64,000 nucleotides of DNA from an uncultured Lachnospiraceae bacterium (GTDB lineage: Bacteria > Bacillota > Clostridia > Lachnospirales > Lachnospiraceae), in assembly GCA_947385425.1 (NCBI GenBank), contig CANDKY010000002.1, positions 53,110 to 117,109 on the forward strand. The letters are read 5' to 3'. Position 1 is the stretch's first letter; the number at the start of each line of letters is the position of its first letter. The position numbers and the translations under genes were made by a program. Shown one piece after another: positions 45,770 through 64,000 of the stretch. The notes under the pieces are model-generated. The model had not been told where the DNA came from, made no database searches, and saw only the letters and a program-made list of their open reading frames with translations.

Positions 45770-45830
45770 GGGCAATCCATGTGAAAAACCGCTTTCTATG
45801 CGTTTTTCCGTGTAAAATTCAGTTTTTCTT
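45770..45830 (-). repeat. Family 1 repeat, diverged partial copy
   Basis: Minus-strand ACACGGAAAAACGC...GCGGTTTTTCACATGG matches the third hairpin of family 1 (CACGCGGAAAAACGCC...GGCGTTTTTCC). The other hairpins are not recognisable. It lies after the GT11-like gene and extends into its last codons. Confidence 0.5.
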
Positions 45831-46928
45831 AACGGGTGTAATTGAGCCGCTTACACTCCTTCTCACCTTCCCAGCCGCCTTACCTGCCCAATACCACAAC
45901 CTATCTGCCCTTTCCTGCATTCTCACTTCCCTGCCGGAAAAAGGAGTACCTTCCCTCCCCATCCCTTCACATTTTCCCTTATACACTTCCAGCTCTTCCC
46001 TGCACTCCTCCGCACAAAACAGCTTCCCGCTCCTGTCCTGATACCGGAACCCCTCATATATATTCTGCTCCGAAGCCCAATAGCCATCCGAAACATTATG
46101 CCTCGCCCAATATTTCGGTGCAATAACCTCCCGCACCGTCTCACTCGTAAACACCGGGAAAAATGCAAAAGAAGAGTTCGACAAAACCAGATATCTGGCA
46201 TTCTTCAAAGCCGCATAATCCCCTGCGATGCCAAAATCATGCGCCTCCAGCTCAGGCAGCAGCCAGTTCGCCGCCCGCACATCCTCCGTCACAATCATAA
46301 ATTCCATATCTTCCCTGATTTTACGCATATTCCGCATGGCATCGAGCCAGTATTTCCGCCTGAGAAACAACGGGCGGCTGTCCACATATTCCCCTCCCCT
46401 CACATTCAGTATGCAAAGGTTATCCCTTGTATACTCATAGGAATCGTATTCCTCCTTTACTTTCAGCCAGCCCTTAATCTCCTGCCTGTGATGGGCAAAA
46501 TACCTCTCCGACTGCAGATTCCCGTATAGTAACGTATTGTCTGCAATTTTATAAATATCATCATCCGCCCCTGCCACATAACAGCCATGAGTCATATCAT
46601 GCACACAATTCTTCAAATACAGACGTTCTTCCCGCTCATGGTAGCTTGCCAGATCCTTTTTCCAATACTCCCTTTTTCCTGCCTTTTTTCCCTTATCTTC
46701 CCCCACAGCCTGCCCTGCCCCGTCCAGAACAGGTATCCCCAGATCCATATCCATAAAATACATCCCCTTTTTGCTATGGATATTCACTGCCAGTTGTTCC
46801 TGCCCCGCGGTCCCGAACTCATACCCCAGATCCTGCGCAATACACCGGGACGATACATAACAAAACAGTTGGTTTCCCAACCCCTGCCCCTTTATAAACT
46901 CCGTTCCCACCATAACCGCCTGCTTCAC
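45819..46928 (-). CDS. GT11-like glycosyltransferase, divergent
   Basis: 369 residues. The N-terminal GQGLGNQLFCYVSSR is the GT11 opening, and VLSNSSFAFFPVFTSE matches the C-terminal acceptor/donor block, but the family's His-x-Arg-Arg-Gly-Asp is LNVRGGEY here, so it is a divergent branch with altered donor contacts. Residues about 68-85 (AGQAVGEDKGKKAGKREY) are a low-complexity insert. A fucosyl or related transfer is likely but unproven. ATG 46928; the end (SGSITPVKKN) runs into diverged family 1 sequence. Confidence 0.7.
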   Translation of the reverse strand: MKQAVMVGTEFIKGQGLGNQLFCYVSSRCIAQDLGYEFGTAGQEQLAVNIHSKKGMYFMDMDLGIPVLDGAGQAVGEDKGKKAGKREYWKKDLASYHEREERLYLKNCVHDMTHGCYVAGADDDIYKIADNTLLYGNLQSERYFAHHRQEIKGWLKVKEEYDSYEYTRDNLCILNVRGGEYVDSRPLFLRRKYWLDAMRNMRKIREDMEFMIVTEDVRAANWLLPELEAHDFGIAGDYAALKNARYLVLSNSSFAFFPVFTSETVREVIAPKYWARHNVSDGYWASEQNIYEGFRYQDRSGKLFCAEECREELEVYKGKCEGMGREGTPFSGREVRMQERADRLWYWAGKAAGKVRRSVSGSITPVKKN

Positions 46929-46930
46929 AT

Positions 46931-47137
46931 CCCTTCCGGTTTTTCCATCTTTCCCGGTTCTTTCATCTCTTCCGGTTTTTCATCCTTCCCGGTTCTTCCA
47001 TCCCTTCCGGCTTTCCTATCCTTCCCGGTTCTTCCGTTTTTCCATCCTTCCCGGTTCTTCCGTCCCTTCCGGCTTTCCCATCCTTCCCGGTTCTTCCGTC
47101 CCTTCCGGTCTATTCATCCTTCCCGGTTCTTCCATTC
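46931..47137 (-). repeat. Intergenic minisatellite
   Basis: About five to six tandem copies of a unit of about 36 bases, in the plus-strand form CATCCTTCCCGGTTCTTCCG then TCCCTTCCGGCTTTCC. Units differ at a few positions and one is shortened to about 24 bases. On the transcribed strand it is purine-rich. It fills the 248-base gap between the GT17 and GT11-like genes, which contains no gene. Confidence 0.85.
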
Positions 47138-47175
47138 TTTTCCTTCTTCTGGTTTGTCATGCCTTATCAATACAT

Positions 47176-48039
47176 TCATTTCCAAAACTCATACCATTTC
47201 GGCTCCTGATACAATAAATACCGGTATTTTTCAATATTTTCCCTCAAATACGCCGGAAAAGTCTCATCAATCTCTACCTTGGCCATCTGTGCATCCCTGC
47301 CGAAAATATCCTGGTGGGATTTTATGTTCCTCCGCACTTTTGACAGCGTAGAGCGGTTATTATACTCCTGATGGGCCGCGCTTTTGATTTTATATTTCAC
47401 CCGTTCTTCCACCGACTGGTTTCTCTCACCGCCCATGTAGCTGAAATGCCAGCCGCCGTCCGGAACTCTGACCCCCACTTCCTTTTGTTCCTTATTGCGC
47501 AGTTCCTCCGTCGTATATTTGTCCAGCATACTGTAACGGCATATTTTCGTCCCAAGCCACATCGGTTTATCCACACCCTCAAATTCCCCGGTTACGGAAA
47601 GCAGTTTCCCCGATACTTCCTCCATATTCAGGTAACAGTAGAACAACCGCTGCGCCAGCATATAAATTTTCCCGTCCTCTACCTTTGGCAAAAGTTTCCT
47701 CACTGTCTCCGGATTCGGAATCTCATCTACATCACTGAAAATAATAATATCATCCGGTTTACAGCCCGCAACGCCCCTGGCTACCGCACATTTCTGATGA
47801 TGATCCCTCATAAACGCGTCACAGTCCATCGGTGTGTCCTCTACCACATTGTGAATGATCTTGTGTTCAAACTTCCTGAACATCTCTTTGTTTTCCTGGT
47901 AAAACAGCGGCTTCCTGTCTCCGGAAAATGTCACCGTGGACTCACTGATCACAAACCGGTCTACCACATCGTCCAAAATGTTCATCCTTAAAAATAAAAT
48001 ATCCAATTCATTAAAAAACTGAAAACAATCGTAAACCAT
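47176..48039 (-). CDS. GT17-family glycosyltransferase
   Basis: 287 residues. MVYDCFQFFNELDILFLRMN and NILDDVVDRFVISESTVTFS, then DDIIIFSDVDEIPNPETVRK, GVRVPDGGWHFSYMGGERNQ are the signatures of family 17 (beta-1,4-N-acetylglucosaminyltransferase-like). DVDEIP carries the putative DxD donor site. AGGAG lies eight bases before ATG 48039. Just upstream is a family 2 element (48046-48192) that ends in this ribosome site. Substrate unknown. Confidence 0.85.
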   Translation of the reverse strand: MVYDCFQFFNELDILFLRMNILDDVVDRFVISESTVTFSGDRKPLFYQENKEMFRKFEHKIIHNVVEDTPMDCDAFMRDHHQKCAVARGVAGCKPDDIIIFSDVDEIPNPETVRKLLPKVEDGKIYMLAQRLFYCYLNMEEVSGKLLSVTGEFEGVDKPMWLGTKICRYSMLDKYTTEELRNKEQKEVGVRVPDGGWHFSYMGGERNQSVEERVKYKIKSAAHQEYNNRSTLSKVRRNIKSHQDIFGRDAQMAKVEIDETFPAYLRENIEKYRYLLYQEPKWYEFWK

Positions 48040-48045
48040 TCTTTT

Positions 48046-48192
48046 CTCCTATTCCAGTACCGCATGTCCCCCAAACAGTACCACAACCTACGGAAGAATA
48101 TCTGCCTCTAATGCATAGTCAGATATTCTTCCGGGCACTGTTTCCGGCACATGCTGTTTTCCAGTACCGCATGTCCCACAAACAGTACCATA
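48046..48192 (-). promoter_or_regulatory. Family 2 structured leader, copy P (upstream of the GT17 gene)
   Basis: Sits between the DUF5672 gene and the GT17 start. On the minus strand it ends GGTACTGGAATAGGAG, which supplies the ribosome site. Outer arms GCATGT (48062-48067) and ACATGC (48149-48154), middle arms AAACAGT/ACTGTTT and a perfect 14-base inner stem (CGGAAGAATATCTG, CAGATATTCTTCCG) form one extended hairpin. A second, partial direct copy of one half (48157-48192) lies on the far side, so the middle arm could pair with either half. Compare copies at 53349-53570 and 58040-58202. Confidence 0.75.
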
Positions 48193-48211
48193 GTCTGCCC
48201 TCAGCCATGTA

Positions 48212-48895
48212 TCAGGAAAAACGCGGATACTCCGCATTTGTCCCCGCCCATTTGTGGAAAACAAAAGGCCGTATCCCTTCCACCTCCGGTATCATAGACT
48301 CATGCCCAAAATATTTCGCAACCTCGAGGGGCGCATACTTCATGCCTGCCGCCTCGAACAAATGCCGGTTCTTGCAGCAGATAAAACCATCCTCATTAAA
48401 AAAACCGTGATCCGCCTCAAATGGAATCTTTGCCTTAGCCGGGAACTCCAGCAGGCGCCTGCTCCGTATGGATACACTGTTCCCCACCCGGCAGATATTC
48501 CCGTTTATATCCCGGTAGGAAAAGTCGTCCTTCGGAAGCGGGAAGGGGGAGCCAATATAATCGTAATCCAGGAACTCATCCCTCCACATATCAGAATTCA
48601 CCACAAACCCGTCATAATGCACCAACAGCATAAAATCCGTATGGATATATTCATGCATACGGTAAATCATATCATAATTAAACGCATCAATATCCTTCAG
48701 CTTCTCAATGTGCCTGTAAGCAATCCCCTTCGGCAAAAACAACGGCTTCCTGTGCGTCACCAATATCACTTCGCCAAAGTCAATATCCCTCATGCTGTAC
48801 TCCAAAGCCTTTACCGTAGCTCTCACTTTCACACTGTCCATAGCTGCCAGAGTTACATTTGGAAGCTGTAGACGGCCGTCCCTGTATTCACTCAT
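48212..48895 (-). CDS. DUF5672 family protein, glycosyltransferase-like
   Basis: About 227 residues. LPNVTLAAMDSVKVRATVKA, IHTDFMLLVHYDGFVVNSDM, DYDYIGSPFPLPKDDFSYRD and RVGNSVSIRSRRLLEF are typical of DUF5672, a family that resembles GT-A enzymes and is found in glycan loci. HYDGFVVN holds a possible donor-site Asp. ATG 48895 follows GGAGCAGGAAAAGGG; the TTG start at 48922 is less likely. The reaction is unknown. Confidence 0.75.
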   Translation of the reverse strand: MSEYRDGRLQLPNVTLAAMDSVKVRATVKALEYSMRDIDFGEVILVTHRKPLFLPKGIAYRHIEKLKDIDAFNYDMIYRMHEYIHTDFMLLVHYDGFVVNSDMWRDEFLDYDYIGSPFPLPKDDFSYRDINGNICRVGNSVSIRSRRLLEFPAKAKIPFEADHGFFNEDGFICCKNRHLFEAAGMKYAPLEVAKYFGHESMIPEVEGIRPFVFHKWAGTNAEYPRFS

Positions 48896-48934
48896 TCCCT
48901 TTTCCTGCTCCTGTCCTTTCAAAAACCCCTGTCT

Positions 48935-49972
48935 TTATTTCCTCTTCCGCCATGCCTCACCGGTACGGATCGGAATCACATACCGATCATACAATTTCAC
49001 AATATAATAATAAACCCCCGGCAATGCCAGCGCCAGCCGCATCCGTACCTTATCGCCGGCAGCCACATACTCTTTTCTGTAAATCCGGCCAATCTGCCCC
49101 TGCTTTTTATCCTCCCGGAGCTGCTTCACGATTTTCCCTGCAAACTCCCTCGTTTGCTTACTCTCCATAAAATCGATATAATAAAATAACATCCTGCGGT
49201 AAAAATGATAAGCTGCCTTATCGGAAAGCTCCGGCATCCCCGCATCCCTGATATAAGCTATCTGTTCCCTCCAGAAAGGGATTTCATCCTTCAGCCTGCG
49301 CTCCCCCGCCTTTTCATTCATAATACTGCCTTCCCTGTCCAGCACATAATTGTAATATGCCGTGTCGAGATAAACCAGCCTGTCCATCTTACAAAAAGCT
49401 TTTGTGGTAAACATAATATCTTCCGAGTTTTTCCCCACCGGAAACCGCATCCCCCGGATAAGCCCCGCCAGAAAAAGCTTGCTCCAGACCGAATTGTAAA
49501 TCAGATACCTTTCATCCCCGCAGACATATATTTCCATTGCCTCCGCTTTTGATAATAATACACTATTTCCGGTAGAAGCGTCAATAACACCCTTACCTGT
49601 TATTTGCTTATACCTGCATACCGCTATCTGGGCCCTCTCCCACTCACATGCCTCACACATCGCCCCGTACATATCCGGCTCTATCCAGTCGTCCCCATCC
49701 ACAAAACCGATATACTTCCCCGTTGCGGCATCCAATCCCGCATTCCTGGCATCCGACAATCCCCCGTTCCGTTTGTGGATAACCCGGATCCTGCCATCCC
49801 CCGCCGCATACTCATCGCATATCCGTCCCGAACCGTCCGTAGATCCGTCGTCCACTAAAATAATCTCCAGATTCCTATATGTCTGCCCTGAAATAGAATC
49901 TACGCACCGCGGCAAGTATTCTTCTATATTGTAGACAGCTACAATTACCGAAACCAACACATCTTCCACCAT
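48935..49972 (-). CDS. Glycosyltransferase family 2
   Basis: About 345 residues, GT-A fold: LVSVIVAVYNIEEYLPRCVD, IILVDDGSTDGSGRICDEYA, GGLSDARNAGLDAATGKYIG and FVDGDDWIEPDMYGAMCEAC. It matches the WcaA/EpsJ-like enzymes that extend repeat units. The C-terminal part (GDKVRMRLALALPGVYYYIV) is amphipathic and probably binds the membrane. ATG 49972 has GGAG ten bases upstream. Related in plan to the GT2 proteins at 32 and 36 kb but without their inserts. Confidence 0.87.
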   Translation of the reverse strand: MVEDVLVSVIVAVYNIEEYLPRCVDSISGQTYRNLEIILVDDGSTDGSGRICDEYAAGDGRIRVIHKRNGGLSDARNAGLDAATGKYIGFVDGDDWIEPDMYGAMCEACEWERAQIAVCRYKQITGKGVIDASTGNSVLLSKAEAMEIYVCGDERYLIYNSVWSKLFLAGLIRGMRFPVGKNSEDIMFTTKAFCKMDRLVYLDTAYYNYVLDREGSIMNEKAGERRLKDEIPFWREQIAYIRDAGMPELSDKAAYHFYRRMLFYYIDFMESKQTREFAGKIVKQLREDKKQGQIGRIYRKEYVAAGDKVRMRLALALPGVYYYIVKLYDRYVIPIRTGEAWRKRK

Positions 49973-50013
49973 ACCCACAATCTCCTGCCGTCCTTTTCTC
50001 CCCTTTTCCCCTT

Positions 50014-50187
50014 AGAGCCTGTTTAAAAACTCATTTCCACCATCTGTACACGGTGTAACCGTTCACCATTTTGCGGGATCTTTGCCCCTCATTCGGGGGC
50101 GATGTCCCACTACACCTCCCTCGTTCGGGGCAAACCTCTCACAAATGTGGTGCACATCTGGCGAAAAGCAGATTTTAAACAGGCTCT
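50014..50187. mobile_element. MITE-like element, 174 bases
   Basis: Terminal inverted repeats: left AGAGCCTGTTTAAAA at 50014, right (inward on the minus strand from 50187) AGAGCCTGTTTAAAA, followed by less similar sequence (CCATCTGTACAC and CCAGATGTGCAC). There is no coding capacity. The first bases resemble those of the 30907-31109 element (AGAGC, then GTTT/ATTT and an A-run), so both probably belong to one family mobilised by a transposase encoded elsewhere. It lies upstream of the GT2 gene in the gap 49973-50341. Confidence 0.75.
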
Positions 50188-50238
50188 TAGAATATGTCTT
50201 AAAGTAGCTTTCTGTAACTGTGCAATACACGGTTTGAT

Positions 50239-50320
50239 GAGCCTATTGGCTCCCGTTTTTTGTCCAAACCAAGGAATCATGATCCCAAACAGCCAAAATG
50301 CATTTCACAACACCTTGGTT
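50239..50320 (+). other. Terminator-like hairpin plus inverted repeat
   Basis: GAGCC-TATT-GGCTC (50239-50252) followed by CCG and six T's has the form of a plus-strand intrinsic terminator, though no plus-strand gene is near. Beyond it AACCAAGG (50267-50274) and CCTTGGTT (50313-50320) are inverted. The stretch may be the remnant of an inserted sequence. It lies between the MITE-like element and the end of the fucosyltransferase gene. Confidence 0.4.
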
Positions 50321-50341
50321 CATACTCCTGGGCACCACGCG

Positions 50342-51232
50342 TTACCGGATTCTCCCTCCCTCGTCTATCCTTACCATACCCTCTGTAAAGATATCATGGC
50401 ACTCACAGGTATTCAGCCATTTCACCGGGGCTATGACACATTTGTCCGGCGAAGGATTCAGCCAGGCCCCCCACCAACTGAAGCTGCTGTTTGCAATAAT
50501 ATGATGCCTGCATTTACTCATCAGCATCAAATCGACATACCCTGTCTCTTCCGATGCCCCCTTAATCACCGTAAACCGTCCGGCATTCTTTCTGCCGCAC
50601 CACCCTTCCGCCCATTCCTCATCGTTGGTAAAAACAAAAAATTGCGCCCCGGGATACCTTTCCAGCATATAAGCAACCGCCCCGTCATAATAGTCTTCCG
50701 TACATATACCCCCATACACCTGCGCCGCTTCCAGATAATCCCCCCGGCGTATGTGGATACTCACGGACTCCGTCCCGGCAATCTGTCGCCCATACTCCGC
50801 CGCCAGCCTCTCCATCCCCTCCGGTATCTCCATCCTCCGGAACCGGAAAGCATCCCGCACCGCATCCTCCACCCCCTTAAAATACTGCTCGCTCTGAAAA
50901 CATCCGCACAGATAGGCATCTTCCCTTTTCAGGACCTCCTCGTCATAATCACAGGATTTCTCATGGTATTCCCTGCTCCTCCTGCCAAATAACCGCCGCC
51001 TCACCCGGCTGCCAAAATCCAACGCTCCATCCGTCCAGGCCACCACCTCTTCCCTCGATGCCTTTGGATAATCAATCCCAAACACCCACAGCATAATCGG
51101 CCTTGCATTATCCAGCTTATATTCCGTCACATCATCGAACTTTACCTCTTTCCCCAGGGAAACAAGTTTCAGGTAAAGCGCATACTGGAACATCTGATTG
51201 CCAATCCCTCCCGACATTCGGATAATATCCAT
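50342..51232 (-). CDS. Alpha-1,2-fucosyltransferase-like, GT11
   Basis: 296 residues. MDIIRMSGGIGNQMFQYALY, SVSIHIRRGDYLEAAQVYGG, ICTEDYYDGAVAYMLERYPG, FFVFTNDEEWAEGW and MSKCRHHIIANSSFSWWGAW make this a complete GT11 enzyme with the His-x-Arg-Arg-Gly-Asp motif. It is closely similar in layout to the enzyme at 22374-23273 but not a recent copy. ATG 51232 follows GAGGTG; an in-frame ATG-like start at 51241 is also possible. Family 1 copy B lies just upstream. Confidence 0.93.
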   Translation of the reverse strand: MDIIRMSGGIGNQMFQYALYLKLVSLGKEVKFDDVTEYKLDNARPIMLWVFGIDYPKASREEVVAWTDGALDFGSRVRRRLFGRRSREYHEKSCDYDEEVLKREDAYLCGCFQSEQYFKGVEDAVRDAFRFRRMEIPEGMERLAAEYGRQIAGTESVSIHIRRGDYLEAAQVYGGICTEDYYDGAVAYMLERYPGAQFFVFTNDEEWAEGWCGRKNAGRFTVIKGASEETGYVDLMLMSKCRHHIIANSSFSWWGAWLNPSPDKCVIAPVKWLNTCECHDIFTEGMVRIDEGGRIR

Positions 51233-51270
51233 TTCCGTCACCTCTTTTCAAAACCACACAACCCTGAACT

Positions 51271-51453
51271 GCAGCAGCACAAACCCAGCCATGAAAAACC
51301 TGGAAGAACGCCTCTTTCCAAACGATACTTCGCTTTGCGTTCTTCCGCGTGAAATGGATTTGCAATGCTGCGCATGGCTAATCCTGGAAGTTCTTAAACG
51401 GTAGAGAACACCGTTGTGGTGTCTTTTACCACTTTAGAACTTCTTTTCACGCT
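51271..51453 (-). repeat. Family 1 intergenic repeat, copy B (elaborated)
   Basis: 183 bases beginning at the asnB stop. The outer arms are GAAGTTCT/AGAACTTC as in copy A, but inside are two new hairpins (GTGGT...ACCAC and ACGGT...ACCGT), giving a three-way-junction shape. The third stem reads GGAAGAACGC/GCGTTCTTCC where copies A and C have GGAAAAACGCC/GGCGTTTTTCC: an A-T pair became G-C on both arms. This is a compensatory change. Confidence 0.85.
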
Positions 51454-53342
51454 CACCTACTATACTGCATCTCCATCCACGCCTGGAACATTAAAAGGAA
51501 CCATATCTGTATCCGCCAAATCCCCTTCTCCGTGTAATCCCTCCATATCCGCTCCACTACATCCGCATCCAGAATACCCTGTTGATCCACTAACCGCCTG
51601 TCCAACAGATTCTCCGCCCACTCCCGCAGTTCCGGCTTTAGCAGCCACTTATCAATCGGGATACTGAACCCCTTTTTCGGCCGTTCCATCATTTCACGGG
51701 GCACATAACGGTACAGCACATCCCGCAGCACCTTTTTCCCTGTTTTCCCCTCCCGCTTATAGGAAATCGGCAGCGACCAGGCAAATTCCACCACATCCTT
51801 ATCCAGCATCGGCACCCTGGTTTCCAGCGAAACCGCCATTGCCGCCCGGTCAACCTTTACCAGGATATCATCCGGATGGTACATCAGCATGTCCATCAGC
51901 ATCACGTTATGGTTCACCTCTTCCAGGCACCCTTCTTCAAACTCATTGTATTTATAAGGGCAATAATCATGCGTCCTGCTGATCCGCTTCGTCAATGGAT
52001 CTGTTTCATAAGATATTTCGTAAAGCCTCCCCGGCCCCTTCGCCCCCAAAAGCGTACCCTTTGTCCGGTAAACAGGATTTTTCGCCAACGGGCTGTGAAG
52101 CACCAGCCCGCTGCACGGCTTCCGGATAAAATAAGGGATATTTTTCATTTTATTCCAGATCCGGCTTACCGACTCATAAGAAGTGTACCCGCAAAACAAC
52201 TCATCCCCCCCGTCTCCCGAAAGCGACACCGTCACATGCTCCCTCGTCATCCTGCTCACCAGATAAGTCGGAATCTGCGAAGAATCGGCAAAAGGCTCCC
52301 CAAACATATAGGCCAGTCCGGGAACCACATCTATGGCATCCTTCTGCGAGATATACAGCTCCGTATGTTCCGTCCCCAAATGCCTGGCAATCTCCTTGGC
52401 CGCCGCCGCTTCATTATACCCCTCTTCCTCCATCCCGATCGTAAAACTTCTTACCCTGCCGCCATGGAGCGCCTGCATCAGGGCCACCACCGTACTGCTG
52501 TCTATCCCCGCGGACAGAAAAGCACCTACCGGGACATCCGCCGCCATCTGCTCCCGTATAGACTCTTTCAAAAGCCTCTCCAGTTCCTCCGCCGCCTCCT
52601 GTTCACTTCCCTTAAACAAATCCGCCTGCCCCTTTTTCGCCGCTTCCTTCATCGACCAGAAAACCGACACCGAAAGGCTTTCCCTGCCGAACGGGGCCTT
52701 CACTGTCAGCACCGTCCCCGGTTCCAGCTTATATATCCCCTCATAAACGGAATAAGGCGCCGGAATATACCCATGCGTAAAATAAATATCCAGAACTTTC
52801 CGGTTCACCGGATTACGAAAGCCGTCCAGCTCAGCAATTGACCCGATCTCCGAAGAAAAAGCAAAAGTATCCTGCCCGATAAAACCATAATAGAGCGGTT
52901 TTTCCCCCACTCTATCCCTCAGCAAATATAAAATTCCCTCTTTTTTATCATACAAAGCAATTGCAAACATGCCCTTACACATGGAAATCGCCGGCTCCAC
53001 CCCGTAAGCCTCCAGCGCTTCCAACAAAACCTCAGTGTCCGAAGTCCCCCGGAAAGCCCTGACCCTCTTTTCTTCCAGCAGTTTTGCGGCAATTTTCTTG
53101 TAATTGTATATTTCCCCGTTAAATGCAATGACAAACCTGCCGCTATGTGACTCCATAGGCTGTGCCCCATTCTCAGACAGATCCACGATGGAAAGCCTCT
53201 TATGCCCCAACACCACATTTCCGTCGCCGGATGCCCAAACCCCTTCCGCATCCGGCCCTCTGTGATGCATCCGCCTGTTCATCCTGCCAATATTCGCCTT
53301 CCAATCCCCGTTCAAATTGCAAAAACCTGCAATCCCGCACAT
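51453..53342 (-). CDS. asnB: Glutamine-dependent asparagine synthase-like amidotransferase
   Basis: 629 residues, two domains. The N-terminal glutaminase domain starts MCGIAGFCNLNGDWK, so Cys2 is the nucleophile after removal of Met1, with RMHHRGPDAEG and LSIVDLSENGAQPM. The synthetase domain has FLSAGIDSSTVVALMQALHG (PP-loop; the usual first Gly of SGG is Ala here), VSLSGDGGDELFCGYTSYES and VPMLDKDVVEFAWSLP. In glycan loci such proteins often amidate uronic acids rather than aspartate. ATG 53342 is preceded by AGGAGGGGCAGC, the end of family 2 copy Q; the frame upstream of it is repeat DNA. A second, diverged copy is at 56141-58027. Confidence 0.9.
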   Translation of the reverse strand: MCGIAGFCNLNGDWKANIGRMNRRMHHRGPDAEGVWASGDGNVVLGHKRLSIVDLSENGAQPMESHSGRFVIAFNGEIYNYKKIAAKLLEEKRVRAFRGTSDTEVLLEALEAYGVEPAISMCKGMFAIALYDKKEGILYLLRDRVGEKPLYYGFIGQDTFAFSSEIGSIAELDGFRNPVNRKVLDIYFTHGYIPAPYSVYEGIYKLEPGTVLTVKAPFGRESLSVSVFWSMKEAAKKGQADLFKGSEQEAAEELERLLKESIREQMAADVPVGAFLSAGIDSSTVVALMQALHGGRVRSFTIGMEEEGYNEAAAAKEIARHLGTEHTELYISQKDAIDVVPGLAYMFGEPFADSSQIPTYLVSRMTREHVTVSLSGDGGDELFCGYTSYESVSRIWNKMKNIPYFIRKPCSGLVLHSPLAKNPVYRTKGTLLGAKGPGRLYEISYETDPLTKRISRTHDYCPYKYNEFEEGCLEEVNHNVMLMDMLMYHPDDILVKVDRAAMAVSLETRVPMLDKDVVEFAWSLPISYKREGKTGKKVLRDVLYRYVPREMMERPKKGFSIPIDKWLLKPELREWAENLLDRRLVDQQGILDADVVERIWRDYTEKGIWRIQIWFLLMFQAWMEMQYSR

Positions 53343-53348
53343 GCTGCC

Positions 53349-53570
53349 CCTCCTATTCCAGTACCGCCAATATACAATAACCACCCCTATCCTGGAAGAA
53401 TTTCCGGCCGCCCCTGCGTCCTGAAATCCTTCCGGGTGCTTATTGTATATTGGCTGTTTCCAGTACCGCCAATATACAATAACCACCCCCTATCCTGGAA
53501 GAATTTCCGGCCGCCCCTGCGTCCTGAAATCCTTCCGGATGCTTATTGTATATTGGCTGTTTCCAGACCG
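53349..53570 (-). promoter_or_regulatory. Family 2 structured leader, copy Q (two tandem units)
   Basis: Two tandem units of 102 and 103 bases differing by one inserted C and two substitutions, each a hairpin with 14-base outer arms (CCAATATACAATAA and TTATTGTATATTGG) and inner arms GGAAGAATTTC and GAAATCCTTCC. Each unit is followed in RNA sense by GGTACTGGAA; the last ends GGTACTGGAATAGGAG, which is the ribosome site of the asnB gene at 53342. A third truncated unit (CAGACCG) is at 53564. It occupies the entire gap between the SGNH-like gene and asnB. Confidence 0.8.
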
Positions 53571-53576
53571 ATCACG

Positions 53577-54653
53577 CTAATTTTCTTCGCCAACTACTGC
53601 AAAGTCCCCTTCTTCAATTCTTCTTGCAATCGTTTTTTTTGCCTCTGCCAATTCCGTCTGCCACTGCCTGTAAGCCGCATCCCAACTCTCATACCCGGCC
53701 TGTCCGCGCCTGTCCGGAATACCATACTTTCCGGCAAGATATTCTCCCAAAAACCTTGTACACTTCTCCGCCCCCAAAGCGTTGGTATGCCCTCCGTAAT
53801 CGCTGAAATCCGAAGCAAAATCCAACCCGATTTCATCATAATAACCGTTCAGGTTCAGGAACTCATAGCCATACCCGGAAATAATTTCCTCCATATAATT
53901 ATACATCATCTGCTTCTCTTCTTCCATAACAGTCGGCGATAAAATAAACAATGCCTGCAAGCCATTCTCTTTTAAATAATCCAGCAAGCTGTAAAGACAT
54001 TCCTCCTGAAATTCCGGCATCGGTTCTTTTTTCGTAATCCCGGAAGTATCCACTGCCTCGCATGGCCCCACCTCGTCCGTCATCACATACCCCTTCTGCC
54101 CGTCCGGCTTCTCATAACGGAAACATGCCATCTGCTCCGGCAAAACCATCGTCTTCCAATTAGAGTGGTATTTAAAAATATCAAAATAATACGTATACCG
54201 CTCCCCCCGCTCCTCCACCATAGCATTAATTGTTTTTATCCGGTTCCAGGAATACTTCAGATTATCCGTGACCCCCCTTGTATATGCCATATTATTAGTC
54301 AGATCCGTCTCATTTGCCGTATACATACGCATTTCAAACACAAACAACTCCGGCTGCTGTGTTTTCCTGACCTCTTCTACCAAATACGTAGCCGCTACCG
54401 GCCGCTGAAGATTACTGGAAATCGGATATGCAGCAATCCCGTATTCCCCCCACATCATCGGCGTAGCATAATATGGGTACACCGGGCTGGAACCAATCAT
54501 CACCACATCTACCGTATTGTCCCTCTCCGCATAAAACCCCGTAAACCGATCCTTCACATCTCCGTTTGTACGTATAATATAAGTAACCGTCATTAAAATA
54601 TACAAAAAAAGTACAATAAATACGATTGACTTCAACGCCTGCCTGCGTGTCAT
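53577..54653 (-). CDS. SGNH/GDSL-like membrane-anchored protein
   Basis: About 358 residues. One N-terminal membrane anchor (KSIVFIVLFLYILMTVTYII) and an extracytoplasmic domain with VDVVMIGSSPVYPYYATPMM (GSS block), VFEMRMYTANETDLTNN, and DFSDYGGHTNALGAEK, where Asp and His fit the catalytic pair of SGNH hydrolases and O-acyltransferase partners (DltD- or AlgX-like). It could deacylate or transfer acyl groups on the exported glycan. Ser-Asp-His in the right order but with uncertain spacing. ATG 54653 follows GGAGGAA closely. Family 1 copy C lies 100 bases upstream. Confidence 0.65.
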   Translation of the reverse strand: MTRRQALKSIVFIVLFLYILMTVTYIIRTNGDVKDRFTGFYAERDNTVDVVMIGSSPVYPYYATPMMWGEYGIAAYPISSNLQRPVAATYLVEEVRKTQQPELFVFEMRMYTANETDLTNNMAYTRGVTDNLKYSWNRIKTINAMVEERGERYTYYFDIFKYHSNWKTMVLPEQMACFRYEKPDGQKGYVMTDEVGPCEAVDTSGITKKEPMPEFQEECLYSLLDYLKENGLQALFILSPTVMEEEKQMMYNYMEEIISGYGYEFLNLNGYYDEIGLDFASDFSDYGGHTNALGAEKCTRFLGEYLAGKYGIPDRRGQAGYESWDAAYRQWQTELAEAKKTIARRIEEGDFAVVGEEN

Positions 54654-54754
54654 TTCCTCCGCTTCTCCTTTCCCCACAAACTATCCCCACACACATACCG
54701 CATACAAAACCTGCGATAATACAATACCAATTTACTTCCCCCACGCTGCCGCCC

Positions 54755-54903
54755 ACAGCAGTACAAACCCGCCATGAAAAACCTGGAAAAACGCCTCTTT
54801 CCCGGCGTTTTTCCGCGTGAAATGGATTTGCAATGCTACGCATGGCAAATCCTAGAAGCTCTTAGGCGGCGTCCTTTGACGCCTTAGAGCTTCTTTTCAC
54901 GCT
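54755..54903 (-). repeat. Family 1 intergenic repeat, full copy C
   Basis: 149 bases, overlapping the last codon and stop of the GT4 gene at 54897. It matches copy A at almost every position. In the first hairpin the arms read AAGCTCT/AGAGCTT where copy A has AAGTTCT/AGAACTT: a U-A pair became C-G, again compensatory. Confidence 0.9.
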
Positions 54904-55991
54904 AAGATTTGGTGAAAATATGTCTCCCATTTCTTATTTATTAAATCAGGATTTAATTTTTCTCTTATTTTTGAACCATTTTCTCCCAATTTTCTTGCCA
55001 ATTCGACATCATCTATTATCTTTTGCAGTTTTTCCTTCAGCATTTCCCAGTTGTCTGCTTCAGTCAACAACCCATTTTCACCATTTATAATCAATTCTGC
55101 CGGCCCTCCGCAGGGACAATCGGTAGAAATACATGGTATTCCAAGTGCCATAGCCTCGATCAATGTATTTGGCATCCCCTCAGAATTAGAAGACAACACA
55201 AAAACCGAAGCCTTATAAATAGCCCCGGCCACATCATCAATACTCCCCGGCAAATGAACCCTCTCCTGAAGCCCCATCTCCTCCACCTGCCGAATCAATT
55301 CAGAACGCAATTCCCCTTCCCCATATATCACCAATTCATACTCCGGGTACTTCCCGGCCAAAGCAGCAAATGCCCGTATAATCATTCTATGATTTTTGTT
55401 TGCATCCACGCGCCCCACTGCAACAATCTTCTTTTCCCGCTCTCCCCTATAAGGTTCCTTCATAAAAGCCGGATGAATGGAATTAGGCAGAACAACCGCC
55501 TTACGGCGTACTGAAACGCCAAAAAAATCCATACTCCTTCTGCTCTGCAGTACCACTCCATCCGCCAGCGGAAACAATAATTCCGCCGCCATCCGAAGGG
55601 CCTTGGAATAATACTCCTCCTTCGGTTCCCCCCGCACCGATACCACCACAGGAATATGGAGCAGCCGTGAAGTCAGCAAAGCCATCATATTATTCTTTCC
55701 GATAAAAGAAAGGATCAAATCCGGCCTTTTCGCCTTCCATACACCCCGCAGCTTCCGGAACCGCTTTACAAAATTCAAAATACGGCTTCTTCCAATCTCC
55801 CCCTCCGCAATCTCAGAATAAACCCTCTTTATCCCGCTGCTAATCCCATACTCACTTTCCGCCCGGTACTGAGTCACTATCGTAACCAAATAACCCTTCC
55901 CGTAAAAATACTCCGCAAGATTCACCAATACCCGCTCCGAACCACCTTTATTTAAAGAACTGATAAACATAGCAATATGCTTCTTATCCAT
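54897..55991 (-). CDS. Glycosyltransferase family 4
   Basis: About 364 residues. HIAMFISSLNKGGSERVLVN, KIVAVGRVDANKNHRMIIRA, LSSNSEGMPNTLIEAMALGI and STDCPCGGPAELIINGENG are the GT4 signatures for enzymes acting late in exopolysaccharide repeat assembly, and resemble the proteins at 10246 and 59001. Both donor-binding glutamates are present. ATG 55991 has GAGGATTTTGAT before it; an upstream start at 56021 is less likely. The end is framed by family 1 copy C. Confidence 0.87.
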   Translation of the reverse strand: MDKKHIAMFISSLNKGGSERVLVNLAEYFYGKGYLVTIVTQYRAESEYGISSGIKRVYSEIAEGEIGRSRILNFVKRFRKLRGVWKAKRPDLILSFIGKNNMMALLTSRLLHIPVVVSVRGEPKEEYYSKALRMAAELLFPLADGVVLQSRRSMDFFGVSVRRKAVVLPNSIHPAFMKEPYRGEREKKIVAVGRVDANKNHRMIIRAFAALAGKYPEYELVIYGEGELRSELIRQVEEMGLQERVHLPGSIDDVAGAIYKASVFVLSSNSEGMPNTLIEAMALGIPCISTDCPCGGPAELIINGENGLLTEADNWEMLKEKLQKIIDDVELARKLGENGSKIREKLNPDLINKKWETYFHQILA

Positions 55992-56080
55992 ATCAAAATC
56001 CTCGTCGCGACAACCTATCACACACCCGCCTTATCCTCTTTTGCACTATATATCTGCCATTGATATTCCTTGCAACATCA

Positions 56081-56140
56081 CATACTCCGCCATGCAAAAC
56101 CCGGAAAATACCCCCCACGCCTTAGAACATCTTTTCGCGA
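56081..56140 (-). repeat. Family 1 repeat, copy with internal deletion
   Basis: Directly after the asnB-like stop, minus-strand CGCGAAAAGATGTTCTAAGGCG matches the start of family 1, and TTTTCCGGGTTTTGCATGGCG matches its end; the middle, including the second hairpin, is missing. It shows that copies decay by internal deletion. Confidence 0.6.
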
Positions 56141-58027
56141 TCAGCCATGATAGCGCTGATACCACTGTTCAAAAATAAAGAAGGACCAGGAAAGTTTAGA
56201 ATAGTTTTCCCCCGTTGCCGGCCCCCCGTCTCCGGTACGAATATACTCCCGGATCATATCCGACACATATGCCGCATCAAAAATCCCCTGACGTTCCAGG
56301 TAATCCTTCTGGCTGTAATCCAAAAGCTGCTCCTTCAGCGGCCCGCGCAGCCACTTGTCAAGCGGCACACCGAAACCCACCTTCGGCCTGTCCAATAATT
56401 CCTTTGGAATATAATCATAAGCAATATCCTTTAAAATATGTTTCTTATCCCCCTTATAAAACTTAAATTTATGAGGAATCTGATAAGAATACTCCATGAC
56501 ATCCCGATCCAGAATAGGGCATCTGGCTTCCAGCGAATATTTCATACTGGCCCTGTCCACCTTACAAAGAATGTCCCCTGGCAGATAGGTATCCATATCC
56601 AGCAGCATCCTGCGTATCTGCCAGTTTTTCTCCTGATATCCGCTCTCCGTCTCATAATGGCATGGCAGCTCTTTGCCGTCATTGCGCACCATTTTTTTCG
56701 CACGAATAATGTAATTGCTGGCGCCGAACTGTGTCTTTGTCTCTTTCCCACGGTTTTCGGCAATCACACGCACACGGAAAGGAAGCCTGTCCGCCAATCC
56801 AAGCCGGCTGACACCCGGCATGTGGCAAAGCCCATGCACCGCCGCCCCCGCTATATCCAGCATCTGCGCCTGCGCCACATTCTCATAGATATTATAACCG
56901 CAATAAAATTCGTCTCCTCCGTCGCCGGACAGCACCACTGTCACTTTCTCCCTTGCAAGCGCCGCTACCAGCATAGACGGTATCTGGGAACTGTCGGCAA
57001 AAGGTTCATCATAATATTGCGGAATGCTTTCCACCAGATCAAACATCTGCTTCTCGTCAATATACATTTCCGTGTGGTTGGTGCCCAGATAATCCGCCAC
57101 CTGCCTGGCATACTTCGCCTCATTATACCGTTCTTCATGAAAACCTATGGAAAATGTTTTCACCGGCTCCGCAGCACTCTCCTGCGCCATAGCCGTAATC
57201 AGCGAGGAGTCATATCCGCCGCTTAAAAAAGCACCCAAAGGCACATCCGCTATCATCCTCGCCGCTGTCGCTTTTCTCAGGAGTTCTTTCAAATGCCCCT
57301 TCGCCTCTTCATAACTGCCAGCCGGATTCGCCCTCCGCTTCGCATATACCTTCCCGACTTCCCAATACTTCCATTTCTCTGTCTTTCCCTGCCGGAAAGC
57401 AAGAATCCCTCCCGGCTCCAGCTTATATACATTCTCATAAGCCGAATCCGGCGCATTGATATATTGCTGATATAGATATCGTGAAAGCACATCCCGCCTG
57501 ATCCTCTCTTCAAACCCGGAACAGGCCATAATCGGCTTCAGCTCCGAAGCAAAAACAAGATTTTCCCCGTCTGTCCAATAATAAAGCGGTTTTTTGCCAA
57601 TCCTGTCCCGGATCAGATAGACTTTCCCATCCTCCCGGTCAAACAATGCTATGGCAAACATCCCGTTAAACCGCTTCACACAATCAATACCCCATTTTAA
57701 ATAAGCCGCAATAATGACTTCCGTATCGCAATTTGAACGGAACGGATAATCGGAAATCTCTTCCCGCAGCTCCTGAAAATTGTAAATTTCCCCATTATAA
57801 ACGACACTTACCCTGCCGTCCGCCGATTCCATCGGCTGATGGCCCAGAACTGACAGATCCAGAATGGACAGCCTCCTTTGGGCAAATCCCACTGAGTAAC
57901 CTCCGCCAGTCCCGTAAATTTCTTCACCGCTGTCGTCCGGCCCTCTATGGTACATCGTATCATTCATCTCTTTTAATTGCGCCAGACGGATATCCCGCCT
58001 GGATACAAAACCGCATATGCCACACAT
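56141..58027 (-). CDS. asnB: Glutamine-dependent asparagine synthase-like amidotransferase, second copy
   Basis: 628 residues. MCGICGFVSRRDIRLAQLKE (Cys2), MYHRGPDDSGEEIYGTGGGY, LSILDLSVLGHQPM for the glutaminase; FLSGGYDSSLITAMAQESA (complete PP-loop), VVLSGDGGDEFYCGYNIYEN and CPILDRDVMEYSYQIPHKFK for the synthetase. It is a diverged paralogue of the gene at 51453-53342, with the SGG motif intact. Likely amidates a sugar acid of the repeat unit. ATG 58027 follows AGGAGG supplied by family 2 copy R. Family 1 copy F follows its stop. Confidence 0.9.
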   Translation of the reverse strand: MCGICGFVSRRDIRLAQLKEMNDTMYHRGPDDSGEEIYGTGGGYSVGFAQRRLSILDLSVLGHQPMESADGRVSVVYNGEIYNFQELREEISDYPFRSNCDTEVIIAAYLKWGIDCVKRFNGMFAIALFDREDGKVYLIRDRIGKKPLYYWTDGENLVFASELKPIMACSGFEERIRRDVLSRYLYQQYINAPDSAYENVYKLEPGGILAFRQGKTEKWKYWEVGKVYAKRRANPAGSYEEAKGHLKELLRKATAARMIADVPLGAFLSGGYDSSLITAMAQESAAEPVKTFSIGFHEERYNEAKYARQVADYLGTNHTEMYIDEKQMFDLVESIPQYYDEPFADSSQIPSMLVAALAREKVTVVLSGDGGDEFYCGYNIYENVAQAQMLDIAGAAVHGLCHMPGVSRLGLADRLPFRVRVIAENRGKETKTQFGASNYIIRAKKMVRNDGKELPCHYETESGYQEKNWQIRRMLLDMDTYLPGDILCKVDRASMKYSLEARCPILDRDVMEYSYQIPHKFKFYKGDKKHILKDIAYDYIPKELLDRPKVGFGVPLDKWLRGPLKEQLLDYSQKDYLERQGIFDAAYVSDMIREYIRTGDGGPATGENYSKLSWSFFIFEQWYQRYHG

Positions 58028-58039
58028 ACCAGGATCCTC

Positions 58040-58202
58040 CTATTCCAGTACCGTCAATTCCATGTATCGTACCTCCCCAGCGGAACAATACCTGTCCATA
58101 ATGCCGGCCAGGTATTGTTCCGGGCACGCTACATGCAATTGACTGTTTCCAGTACCGTCAATTCCTTATACCGTGCCTCCCCAGCGGAACAATACCTGTC
58201 CT
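58040..58202 (-). promoter_or_regulatory. Family 2 structured leader, copy R (upstream of the second asnB)
   Basis: Minus-strand order: a 57-base half, a middle segment complementary to it, and a second direct copy of the half that ends GGTACTGGAATAGGAGG, the ribosome site. Stems: GTCAATTCCATGTA (58053-58066) with TACATGCAATTGAC (58130-58143), and a perfect inner pair CGGAACAATACCTG (58081-58094) with CAGGTATTGTTCCG (58109-58122). The middle segment can pair with the 5' or the 3' half but not both. Confidence 0.8.
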
Positions 58203-58976
58203 TCATAAAAATGCCTTCTTCACTACCTCATCTTCCAGAAAGCTGTCACGGTATTCTGCAAAATCTTTGCATTCCCTGTCAATACTGTCTATCAGTTCTA
58301 TATATTTCTCTTTCACCAGAGCCTTATAGTTCTCGTAATTATCGTACCCCTTTTTTGTCCATGCAAAAGGATGCGTAAGAATCTGAACTTTGTCATGACC
58401 AAGGATGGTTTTTTCGTCCGGATAGCCATATCTCCATATATGGTTTGCATCTGACATGTATTTTACCCCTAACTCGGAATCCTCGGTCACATTTTCCGCA
58501 AAGGTAAAAAACTCATCCTGATATGCGTTTATAATCCCCGGCAGCTTTATATTCTCTGCAAGCACCGCCGGAGAAGGTCTGTGGACGGAAAACTCTGAGA
58601 TTTCAAATCCAAGCATTTCACTTAACATATGCATTTCCTTTATGATCTGCTTACGCACCTCCTGCATATCCGTTATGCCGTTCAAAGCAAAATGCAGCCC
58701 GATTTCCTGCCCCCTTTCATGCATATCGCAAATCAGATCCCTGTTTTTTCTTGATAATAAATTGTAGGAATTGTTTGTCCACTGAAAAAAGAAAGTAGAT
58801 GTGAAATCCATGCTGGTTTCCACCTTCGCCAACGCATAAGCCCGTTCCACACTGTATTCCACATCATGCCGCATAATAATAAATTTATCCTTATGCAAAG
58901 CATCTGCATAAGTACTCTGTAAACCGGTTGACTTGATAATCCTTATTATCTCCTTATAATCACCATATGAAAACAT
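58203..58976 (-). CDS. Polysaccharide deacetylase-like (NodB-type fold) protein
   Basis: 257 residues without signal peptide. KFIIMRHDVEYSVERAYALA (RHDVE, an acidic metal/nucleophile region), GQEIGLHFALNGITDMQEVR (EIGLHF, metal His) and EISEFSVHRPSPAVL (SVHRP) follow the NodB motif order seen in cytoplasmic glycan-locus deacetylase-like proteins. It could deacetylate a sugar nucleotide or lipid-linked intermediate. Good GGAGTGGAAAA site before ATG 58976. The fold call is firm; activity is inferred. Confidence 0.75.
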   Translation of the reverse strand: MFSYGDYKEIIRIIKSTGLQSTYADALHKDKFIIMRHDVEYSVERAYALAKVETSMDFTSTFFFQWTNNSYNLLSRKNRDLICDMHERGQEIGLHFALNGITDMQEVRKQIIKEMHMLSEMLGFEISEFSVHRPSPAVLAENIKLPGIINAYQDEFFTFAENVTEDSELGVKYMSDANHIWRYGYPDEKTILGHDKVQILTHPFAWTKKGYDNYENYKALVKEKYIELIDSIDRECKDFAEYRDSFLEDEVVKKAFL

Positions 58977-63416: not shown

Positions 63417-63613
63417 GTTATAGCTGCTACTTTTCTAAATAGATTTACAGTAATTTATCCTTATTTGAAAGCATAGTTATGCGCTTGTAAAATTACATAA
63501 TCATTATGCGATATATACTATAAGTGCTGTATATTCTTGCAGTATCACCTATGATAGCGTTGCTCACATGCACGGAAAACATTAAGTCATTTTCATATAA
63601 TGCCGTTATTCCA

Positions 63614-64000
63614 GGATCACCCCCGCACACGCGGGGAAAACGCCGTCTGTATCTGTCTCCGCACCGTACACGGAGGATCACCCCCGCACACGCGGGGAAA
63701 ACTGCTCTTTTTGCTGCCTCTGTTAGTGCCATATAGGATCACCCCCGCCCACGCGGGGAAAACGCTAACTCCGTATGAAAATAATATCACACTAAGGGAT
63801 CACCCCCGCCCACGCGGGGAAAACTATCATATTCGGTTTTTGACAGGCGTTCTTTGAGGATCACCCCCGCCCACGCGGGGAAAACGTGCTGAGGCGGTGG
63901 AGGGATATTTCCCGGCAGGGATCACCCCCGCCCACGCGGGGAAAACTACTTGGTCTTATGGAGGGTATTTCTGCTGCTAGGATCACCCCCGCCCACGCGG
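63614..64000 (-). CRISPR. Type I-E style CRISPR array, distal end, continues beyond the window
   Basis: Six complete 28-base repeats (63614, 63675, 63736, 63797, 63858, 63919) and a seventh cut by the window edge (63980), with six spacers of 33 bases at an exact 61-base period. Plus-strand repeat form is GGATCACCCCCGCCCACGCG then GGGAAAAC; the minus-strand form with a CCCCGC/GCGGGG hairpin is typical of type I-E, with handle GTGATCC. The two leftmost repeats have A in place of C in the loop (GCACAC for GCCCAC), which marks the leader-distal end, so the leader and probably the cas genes lie to the right. No cas gene is in this window. Confidence 0.95.

Follow-up and report, generated by a model that had tools for sequence, protein, structure and literature searches.

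The genome of an uncultured Lachnospiraceae bacterium (assembly GCA_947385425.1) carries a family of hairpin-forming repeat units, each of about 105 nucleotides (nt), that end directly 5' of the Shine-Dalgarno (SD) sequences of unrelated genes. Three copies, denoted P, Q and R, lie in the 64,000-nt stretch of contig CANDKY010000002.1 analysed here (positions 53,110 to 117,109; hereafter, the window). We conclude that all three probably represent one small, non-autonomous kind of mobile element, which inserts directly 5' of a native SD, in the sense orientation, and is kept as an RNA structure. This conclusion follows from the lineage-specific presence of units beside SDs that relatives keep without units, from one clean insertion, and from the combination of a fixed 3' end and ragged 5' ends with in-place tandem growth and with outer-stem pairing that is kept while the letters change. 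Some gut bacteria contain up to about two hundred such hairpins placed exactly before the ribosome-binding sites of unrelated genes, and the family looks like an undescribed mobile element living as messenger-RNA structure.

Hairpin units in the window and across the source genome

Each unit consists, in order, of (A)ACAGC, an outer stem of about 20 base pairs (bp), an inner hairpin, an unpaired bulge of about 8 nt that is confined to the 3' side, the returning outer arm and GCGGWACTGGAAT, after which the gene's own SD follows. The linker GGWACTGGAA(A)ACAGC is conserved across units, the outer stem often ends in GCCC, and the inner hairpin is largely conserved (CCCGGAAGAA / TTCTTCC, in the form GGAAGAA.../...TTCTTCC), with a loop of either the CATGCATTAGG type or the GACGC-AGGA-GCG type. 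A preliminary description of the three copies, made from the letters of the window, held that pairing but not sequence had been kept; this applies to the outer stem only, given the conservation of the linker and of much of the inner hairpin.

P, Q and R are present at the positions given in that description, all on the minus strand, and the fixed end that it reported, GGTACTGGAATAGGAG, is exact ahead of the start codons at 48046-48061 (P), 53350-53365 (Q) and 58037-58052 (R); at a tolerance of up to 3 mismatches, the number of matches expected by chance is 0.59, and at least three matches appeared in 2 of 100 shuffles. The genes 3' of the copies were likewise named correctly, a GT17 gene (PF04724) for P and asparagine-synthase genes (PF00733) for Q and R. 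All three copies fold far better than dinucleotide shuffles (z of -12.7 for Q, -8.3 for R and -8.7 for P, with 0 of 200 shuffles as good for each copy). The nested pairing stands, and the arm length of 6-14 bases given earlier does not, the outer stem measuring about 20 bp and the inner one 9-14 bp. P comprises one unit and the end of another; Q, two tandem units with an 80-nt core that is 99% alike; and R, one unit and the 3' half of another that starts directly after the stop codon of the upstream gene. The features of the three copies are as follows (all on the minus strand; bit scores are those of the covariance model described below).

48046-48051, P: SD (TAGGAG) of the GT17 gene (open reading frame (ORF) 47176-48039), from sequence and ORF
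48052-48168, P: complete unit with linkers at 48052-48061 and 48159-48168 and inner hairpin; 112.8 bits, model training member
within 48052-48168, P: outer stem GCATGT.../...ACATGC
48169-48192, P: second unit, truncated at its 5' side to a 3' remnant, with a 22-nt end similar to that of the complete unit (score 19 over 22 nt)
53350-53355, Q: SD (TAGGAG) of the asparagine-synthase gene 51453-53342 (start set at MCGIAGF)
53356-53467, Q: SD-proximal complete unit, outer stem GCCAATATACAATAA / TTATTGTATATTGGC; 88.3 bits, model training member
53458-53467, Q: linker common to both units, the right linker of the second
53458-53569, Q: second tandem unit with a degenerate left linker (GGTCTGGAAA); source-genome match G000:C2:106567-106678, 77.7 bits
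58037-58042, R: SD (TAGGAG) of the asparagine-synthase gene 56141-58027
58043-58156, R: complete unit with linkers at 58043-58052 and 58147-58156; 104.4 bits, model training member
within 58043-58156, R: outer stem GTCAATT.../...AATTGAC
58157-58202, R: 3' half of a second unit, abutting the stop codon at 58203-58205 that closes the upstream ORF (58203-58976); score of 33 across 45 nt

To judge from the insertion at loci L340/L364 (see below), the first T of TAGGAG in P probably belongs to the element. The preliminary description matched the copies to no named element. Rfam searches at the curated (gathering) thresholds gave no match in the 64,000-nt window, and the 12 matches at five other element loci were all sub-threshold, nearly all to microRNA hairpins. 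Among the results listed in our literature searches, no paper described this element by title or abstract. The only listed site of a terminator scan that overlaps P, Q or R (53486-53501) lacks a real U-tract.

The 3' end GCGGWACTGGAA occurs 203 times in the source genome (4.42 Mb) versus once for the reversed control, and GGTACTGGAA occurs 56 times versus 8 for the reversed word. Linker pairs 100-110 nt apart bracket units of one and the same architecture, which are repeated with a period of 102-107 nt in arrays containing up to four complete units. A covariance model built on 29 source-genome units (alignment A1, whose training sequences include the SD-proximal Q unit as well as P and R) yielded at least 148 matches in this genome, with 150 of 3072 first-look candidates scored. 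The copies differ widely: the median identity between distinct units of at least 90 nt is 61% (3486 pairs), and the closest pairs, at 80-99%, are mostly within one array. Capture of the outer arms from other genome sequence was considered and dropped; the listed matches of exact 13-mers in sampled source DNA outside recognised units looked like chance by inspection, with no formal control, and the same search also returned units with a GGGACTGG linker that the filter had missed. In one clade (L355, L359, L360, L113), the linker carries its own mini hairpin, for example, GGAACAAATTGCCGCAAGCGGCAATTGAA.

Other repeats occur in the same DNA. A second family of nested inverted repeats (TTTCACGC, GGATTTGCAATGC) is placed just 3' of genes rather than 5', at these positions:

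51282-51456, 54765-54906, 56083-56144 and 45784-45818 of the window: post-gene repeat family
L206:7748-10087: the same family

At 50011-50190 of the window, an inverted repeat with 41-nt arms, 78% complementary and 98 nt apart, with the ends GAGCCTGTTTAAA / TTTAAACAGGCTC, appears to be a palindromic element in its own right. The tandem repeats at 46915-47163 are about 18 nt long and abound in CTTCCGG and TTCCCGG, and a CRISPR-like array with the repeat GGATCACCCCCGC(C/A)CACGCGGGGAAAAC and a 61-nt period extends from 63604 to 64000 and on past the window end. Elsewhere in the source genome, a repeat of about 190 nt (L199:2822-3011) has 17 more copies at 95-99% identity and is about 70% alike its own reverse complement.

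Position at the Shine-Dalgarno sequence and corresponding sites in relatives

The sample of the source genome contains 90 distinct model matches, of which 28 are followed by another unit and 2 lie at an edge, leaving 60 array ends. By script, an SD, a start codon and an ORF follow 54 of these 60 ends. Among the remaining six, inspected by eye, four (L200, L208, L211, L215) run into another unit and L197 has an SD-like TAAGAAAGGAGG, so that L071 is the sole true exception. Related genomes hold many further copies, there too beside ribosome-binding sites; the outcomes that the preliminary description named as refuting it did not occur. The units mostly lie between co-directional genes, with a stop codon within 450 nt upstream for 25 of 43 source-genome units and 78 of 96 units in the set of named genomes; the nearest upstream ORF is on the opposite strand for 15 of 43 and 15 of 96, respectively. 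The earlier hint at a particular class of downstream gene did not hold up, since other copies precede unrelated genes: the 53 downstream genes whose translations were read look unrelated, with no enrichment test run. From these translations, without family search, we take the genes to include ileS, clpP, rex, yebC, ybaB, leuA and uvrA and, by the same presumptive labelling, gltB, nth, cdsA, yidC, pyrK and spoIIAB.

The heptamer TAGGAGG is an SD in 27 of its 30 occurrences in the source-genome sample; because it is nearly confined to SDs, position alone would be compatible with a plain DNA target. Element junctions are, in addition, found at TGGAGG, TAAGAAAGG and TAGAAAGG. At L145, L092 and L126, upstream open frames of 266, 338 and 546 codons continue across the linker and have the TAG of TAGGAGG as their stop codon (GCG GAA CTG GAA TAG). 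A different recurrent pre-start sequence, CAGAAATGAGG or near it, was seen by eye before several unrelated genes in relatives (L271, L281, L284, L286, L299, L304, L310).

The starts of 18 unit-bearing genes were sought in relatives, and the upstream DNA was read for 17 of these genes at 60 sites in four genomes; nth had no relative, and the gene labelled 'speE?' is misaligned at its start codon in the relatives, which makes its 3 of the 60 sites doubtful. No linker abuts the SD at 57 of the 60 orthologous sites. The other three are clpP in G009, ybaB in G002 and ybaB in G001, the last of these decayed. Words resembling the linker were found no more than 70 nt from the start at 5 of the 60 sites, and those at yebC in G002 and at ACT in G015 do not abut the SD; cdsA of G002 (CGAACCGGAATGGAGG) may hold a decayed remnant. 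The aligned flanks indicate that the SD is native to the gene, namely, TAGGAGGAAAGAAA before yidC, AGGAGGGATAAG before pyrK, TAGGGGGCAGC before rex and GAAAGGATGGA before ileS. The locus L199:1979-2094 forms an empty-site pair with G009 and G010.

The finest comparison involves G435 and G436, the genomes of L110 and L113, which are about 90% alike. Of 10 loci with a counterpart, 7 have the element in both genomes and 3 in one only, and an eleventh (L337) has no counterpart. One of the three, L340/L364, is a clean insertion of 70 nt exactly at the 5' edge of the SD (5' of AGGAGG): the sequence with the element is ...ATAATATA|AAACACAGC...GCGGAACTGGAAT|AGGAGGAAC, and that without it is ...CAACATA|AGGAGGAAC. 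At this one clean site the inserted DNA has no inverted ends (the ends are AAACACAGC and GCGGAACTGGAAT, the palindrome being internal) and no target duplication beyond one ambiguous A. Duplication of a TAG target, suggested by the loci labelled cdsA and spoIIAB, was dropped after upstream frames were found to end in TAA 12 times, TAG 4 times and TGA 2 times (18 copies cut to 5-45 nt behind frames of at least 100 codons, counted by eye; a few of these frames may be chance).

Abundance varies greatly among relatives, with 12-nt end counts within the genus of 203 (source), 116, 96, 85, 50 and down to 1-3 in five genomes. In an even sample of 397 genomes from the family, 3 have the exact 18-nt end (47 in the source genome, 27 in G028 and 12 in G223), and among the matches listed, the record titles are those of Lachnospiraceae, related genera or bacteria without a name. 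Phages and plasmids were rejected as carriers, with one element query against each collection giving no match. Three viral contigs have the 18-nt end, with a model match in L332 only.

Maintenance of pairing and growth of arrays

In A1, which was aligned without structure and to which the RNAalifold consensus on A1 minus four pairs was applied, 89.8% of the cells are paired versus 65.6% after shuffling, and cells with both sides changed number 191 versus 71. The covariation score is 0.629, compared with 0.204 for shuffled alignments and at most 0.230 with slid partners; for 74 matches from other loci, nearly all in other genomes and fitted to the model, it is 0.529 versus 0.160. Covariation, for which the preliminary description had proposed a test, exceeds the controls in the source genome and in others; the structure of the unit is clearly under constraint. 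That description left the choice between a functional RNA and a mobile hairpin aimed at this position; mobility is supported by the native SDs that relatives keep without units, whereas of the functional RNA only the structural constraint is borne out.

Change with retention of pairing can be followed at single loci. At L334/L344, common to G435 and G436, 28 pairs are unchanged, 2 are changed on both sides and kept, and 1 is broken; at L338/L341, also common to both, 30 are unchanged, 2 are doubly changed, 1 is singly changed and kept, and none is broken. In the more distant ybaB pair (L132 versus the source genome), the corresponding numbers are 17 unchanged, 6 double, 3 single kept and 7 broken. 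Between adjacent units of arrays (34 pairs of units), changes concentrate in the distal stem (107 of 408 base pairs); the part next to it has 38 of 306 changed, and the inner stem 23 of 443. Pairing is retained in 55 of the 168 changed pairs after change on both sides and in 46 after change on one side. At L056, adjacent units have the same core, with sharp differences limited to the distal stem. Three of the six arrays with at least three units show ABAB order, with lag-2 identity of 0.96-1.0 and lag-1 identity of 0.74-0.80, that is, alternate units are 96-100% identical and adjacent ones 74-80%:

L203:2283-2720: higher-order ABAB array
L205:1535-1960: higher-order ABAB array
L207 6125-6545, reverse strand: higher-order ABAB array

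The 3' end of the arrays is constant, and the 5' end may fall anywhere: what is present ranges from a few nt of a right arm up to several units and often begins immediately at the stop codon of the upstream gene; in some units (L336, L345), a whole 5' end, AAACAGC, lies just 3' of the stop codon. A partial repeat of the first complete unit precedes that unit in 30 of 48 source-genome and 25 of 40 named-genome arrays, above the 95% level of cross-locus comparisons, with the proviso that the linker definition of the array finder is loose and that one pair (L024) may have been included by chance. At L345/L361, the arrays of G435 and G436 differ by a whole unit, through tandem duplication in one or loss in the other since the two genomes split, and shrinkage is seen at L121, a small hairpin where L125 holds a full unit. 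Copying from a fixed 3' point with a random stop would fit the ragged ends, as would repeated insertion at the SD combined with erosion from the 5' side.

Competing explanations and relation to known systems

The most likely account is that an element mobilised in trans recognises the SD or the DNA sequence of the SD. After insertion, the unit would belong to the leader or to the intercistronic DNA and would presumably be present in the mRNA. The hairpin itself would be selected, being either needed for movement of the element or protective or insulating for the mRNA, and the linker of about 10 nt would hold it clear of the SD. For the host, the unit would most likely act as a putative 5' mRNA stabiliser or processing site.

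Several observations weigh against a mobile element that inserts at SDs. In the named-genome set, 63 of 65 ends pass the SD test (one of the other two runs into N), and this set was retrieved with TAGGAGG in the pattern, so that the association is built in. The two other empty sites in the G435/G436 comparison have no linker, but they are not clean, their flanks being too diverged to place the left boundary. The ragged 5' ends may be due to later erosion, as at L137, a remnant where L189 is whole. Elements can stay put across species, with 7 of 10 loci common to G435 and G436 and a ybaB copy in several species, and host selection therefore remains to be reckoned with. Compensation is lacking for 67 of the 168 pairs changed between adjacent units, which are broken, some through alignment gaps, and the second unit of L213 (reverse strand, from 2454) has arms of two types that do not pair, a pattern that a crossover in the inner part would give. 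Finally, no mobilising enzyme was found among Y1_Tnp and RVT_1, the only families searched. Y1 transposase was not found in G001, G028, G435 and G436, all of them element-bearing, where it may have been lost in the past; in G009, which is 83% complete and has 85 element ends, no reverse transcriptase (RVT_1) was found; and no unit was found within 18 sampled loci of Y1 or reverse transcriptase genes (12 of them reverse transcriptase loci). Neither family was retained as the driver because gene counts do not track element counts.

Among the alternatives, a conventional miniature DNA transposon of the kind of BOX or of a miniature inverted-repeat transposable element (MITE) is conceivable, if rather doubtful. 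Such an element would have an AGGAGG-like DNA target, or would land widely and survive only before SDs, and its hairpin, with similarly limited plausibility, would be merely what the transposase needs. The family is indeed dispersed, patchy and palindromic, and with 27 of 30 TAGGAGG words located at SDs, a DNA target motif could yield the same pattern. However, the clean empty site shows neither inverted ends nor, one ambiguous base apart, a target duplication; a single source-genome array end truly departs from the SD position; junctions also fall at the other words listed above; and copies at different loci are not alike.

A bolder form of the mobile-element explanation, which we consider unlikely, is an RNA-structured element that homes on the translation start region and inserts, in the sense orientation only, at any SD (AGGAGG, GGAGG, AAGAAAGG). 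Its machinery, on this equally unlikely extension, might act via RNA, and the element would persist in the mRNA as an array of hairpins with outer stems that diversify freely yet remain paired. If true, this would be a bacterial counterpart of short interspersed elements (SINEs) that is specific for ribosome-binding sites.

We also think it unlikely that the unit is a neutral parasite with arms kept complementary by a mutational process, such as template switching or gene conversion between the arms of the palindrome, rather than by selection on RNA. The fast change of the distal stems (107 of 408 pairs versus 23 of 443 in the inner stem), the adjacent units of L056 that differ sharply in the distal stem only, and the active recombination evident from the ABAB arrays agree with such a process. 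In contrast, compensation at shared loci consists of scattered single pairs, the unit with mismatched arms demonstrates that arms are not always corrected, and a process limited to the palindrome leaves the strict SD position unexplained. Least probable is a host class of cis-regulatory or mRNA-stabilising RNAs selected at its genes and spread by ordinary duplication and recombination, for which the strict SD position, the in-place compensatory change and the 7 of 10 loci common to G435 and G436 speak, but which is hard to reconcile with unrelated downstream genes, 57 of 60 orthologous sites without a linker at the SD, one clean insertion, and copy numbers from 1 to 203 within one genus.

If the units are indeed mobile elements inserted at SDs, many genes in some gut bacteria, core genes included, would owe their leaders to a selfish hairpin that targets ribosome-binding sites, and a mobile element would have a translation signal as its target. 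The same gene with and without a structured leader would provide a natural experiment, and structure held while the stem sequence turns over would allow selection on RNA to be distinguished from templated palindrome repair.

Among known systems, REP sequences and IS200-IS605 derivatives are hairpins moved by Y1 transposases beside a short target, without inverted ends or target duplication; by comparison, no Y1 transposase was found in the four element-bearing genomes named above, and the stems differ within one genome. Integron attC sites are recognised by their folded structure and combine variable stems with short fixed ends; of the attC core motifs, RYYYAAC is found here in 1 of 29 units and GTTRRRY in none of the 29. 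Unlike MITEs, the element lacks terminal inverted repeats (at the one clean site) and target duplication (at L340/L364, the other two empty sites being too diverged to resolve), and its copies are not alike within a genome, given the median identity of 61%. The link to a reverse transcriptase that characterises a bacterial retroelement is missing, in that RVT_1 counts do not track the element and the 12 reverse transcriptase loci hold no unit. Likewise, association with related genes, as for the cis-regulatory leader of a gene class, was not seen among the 53 genes read without an enrichment test.

The Correia/NEMIS, ERIC and RUP repeats are small non-coding palindromic repeats that fold as RNA, some of them reported to alter mRNA fate, with terminal inverted repeats and target duplications tabulated in a review (PMC2229807). 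The element resembles them in size and habit, whereas its clean empty site has neither inverted ends nor target duplication. BOX of Streptococcus pneumoniae is a family of small repeats at dispersed sites that has the end modules boxA and boxC; the number of tandem hairpin modules varies, as does array length between strains, and the repeats are proposed to be parasitic yet able to alter expression (PMC3049150). Compared with BOX, our element is alike in size, habit and tandem hairpin modules; by contrast, it has one constant and one ragged end rather than modules at both ends, its outer stems share no sequence, and its constant end abuts the SD. We would class the element with the small dispersed mobile hairpins, set apart by its ends, its junction with the SD and its stems without common sequence, and there is a real chance that it is something more.

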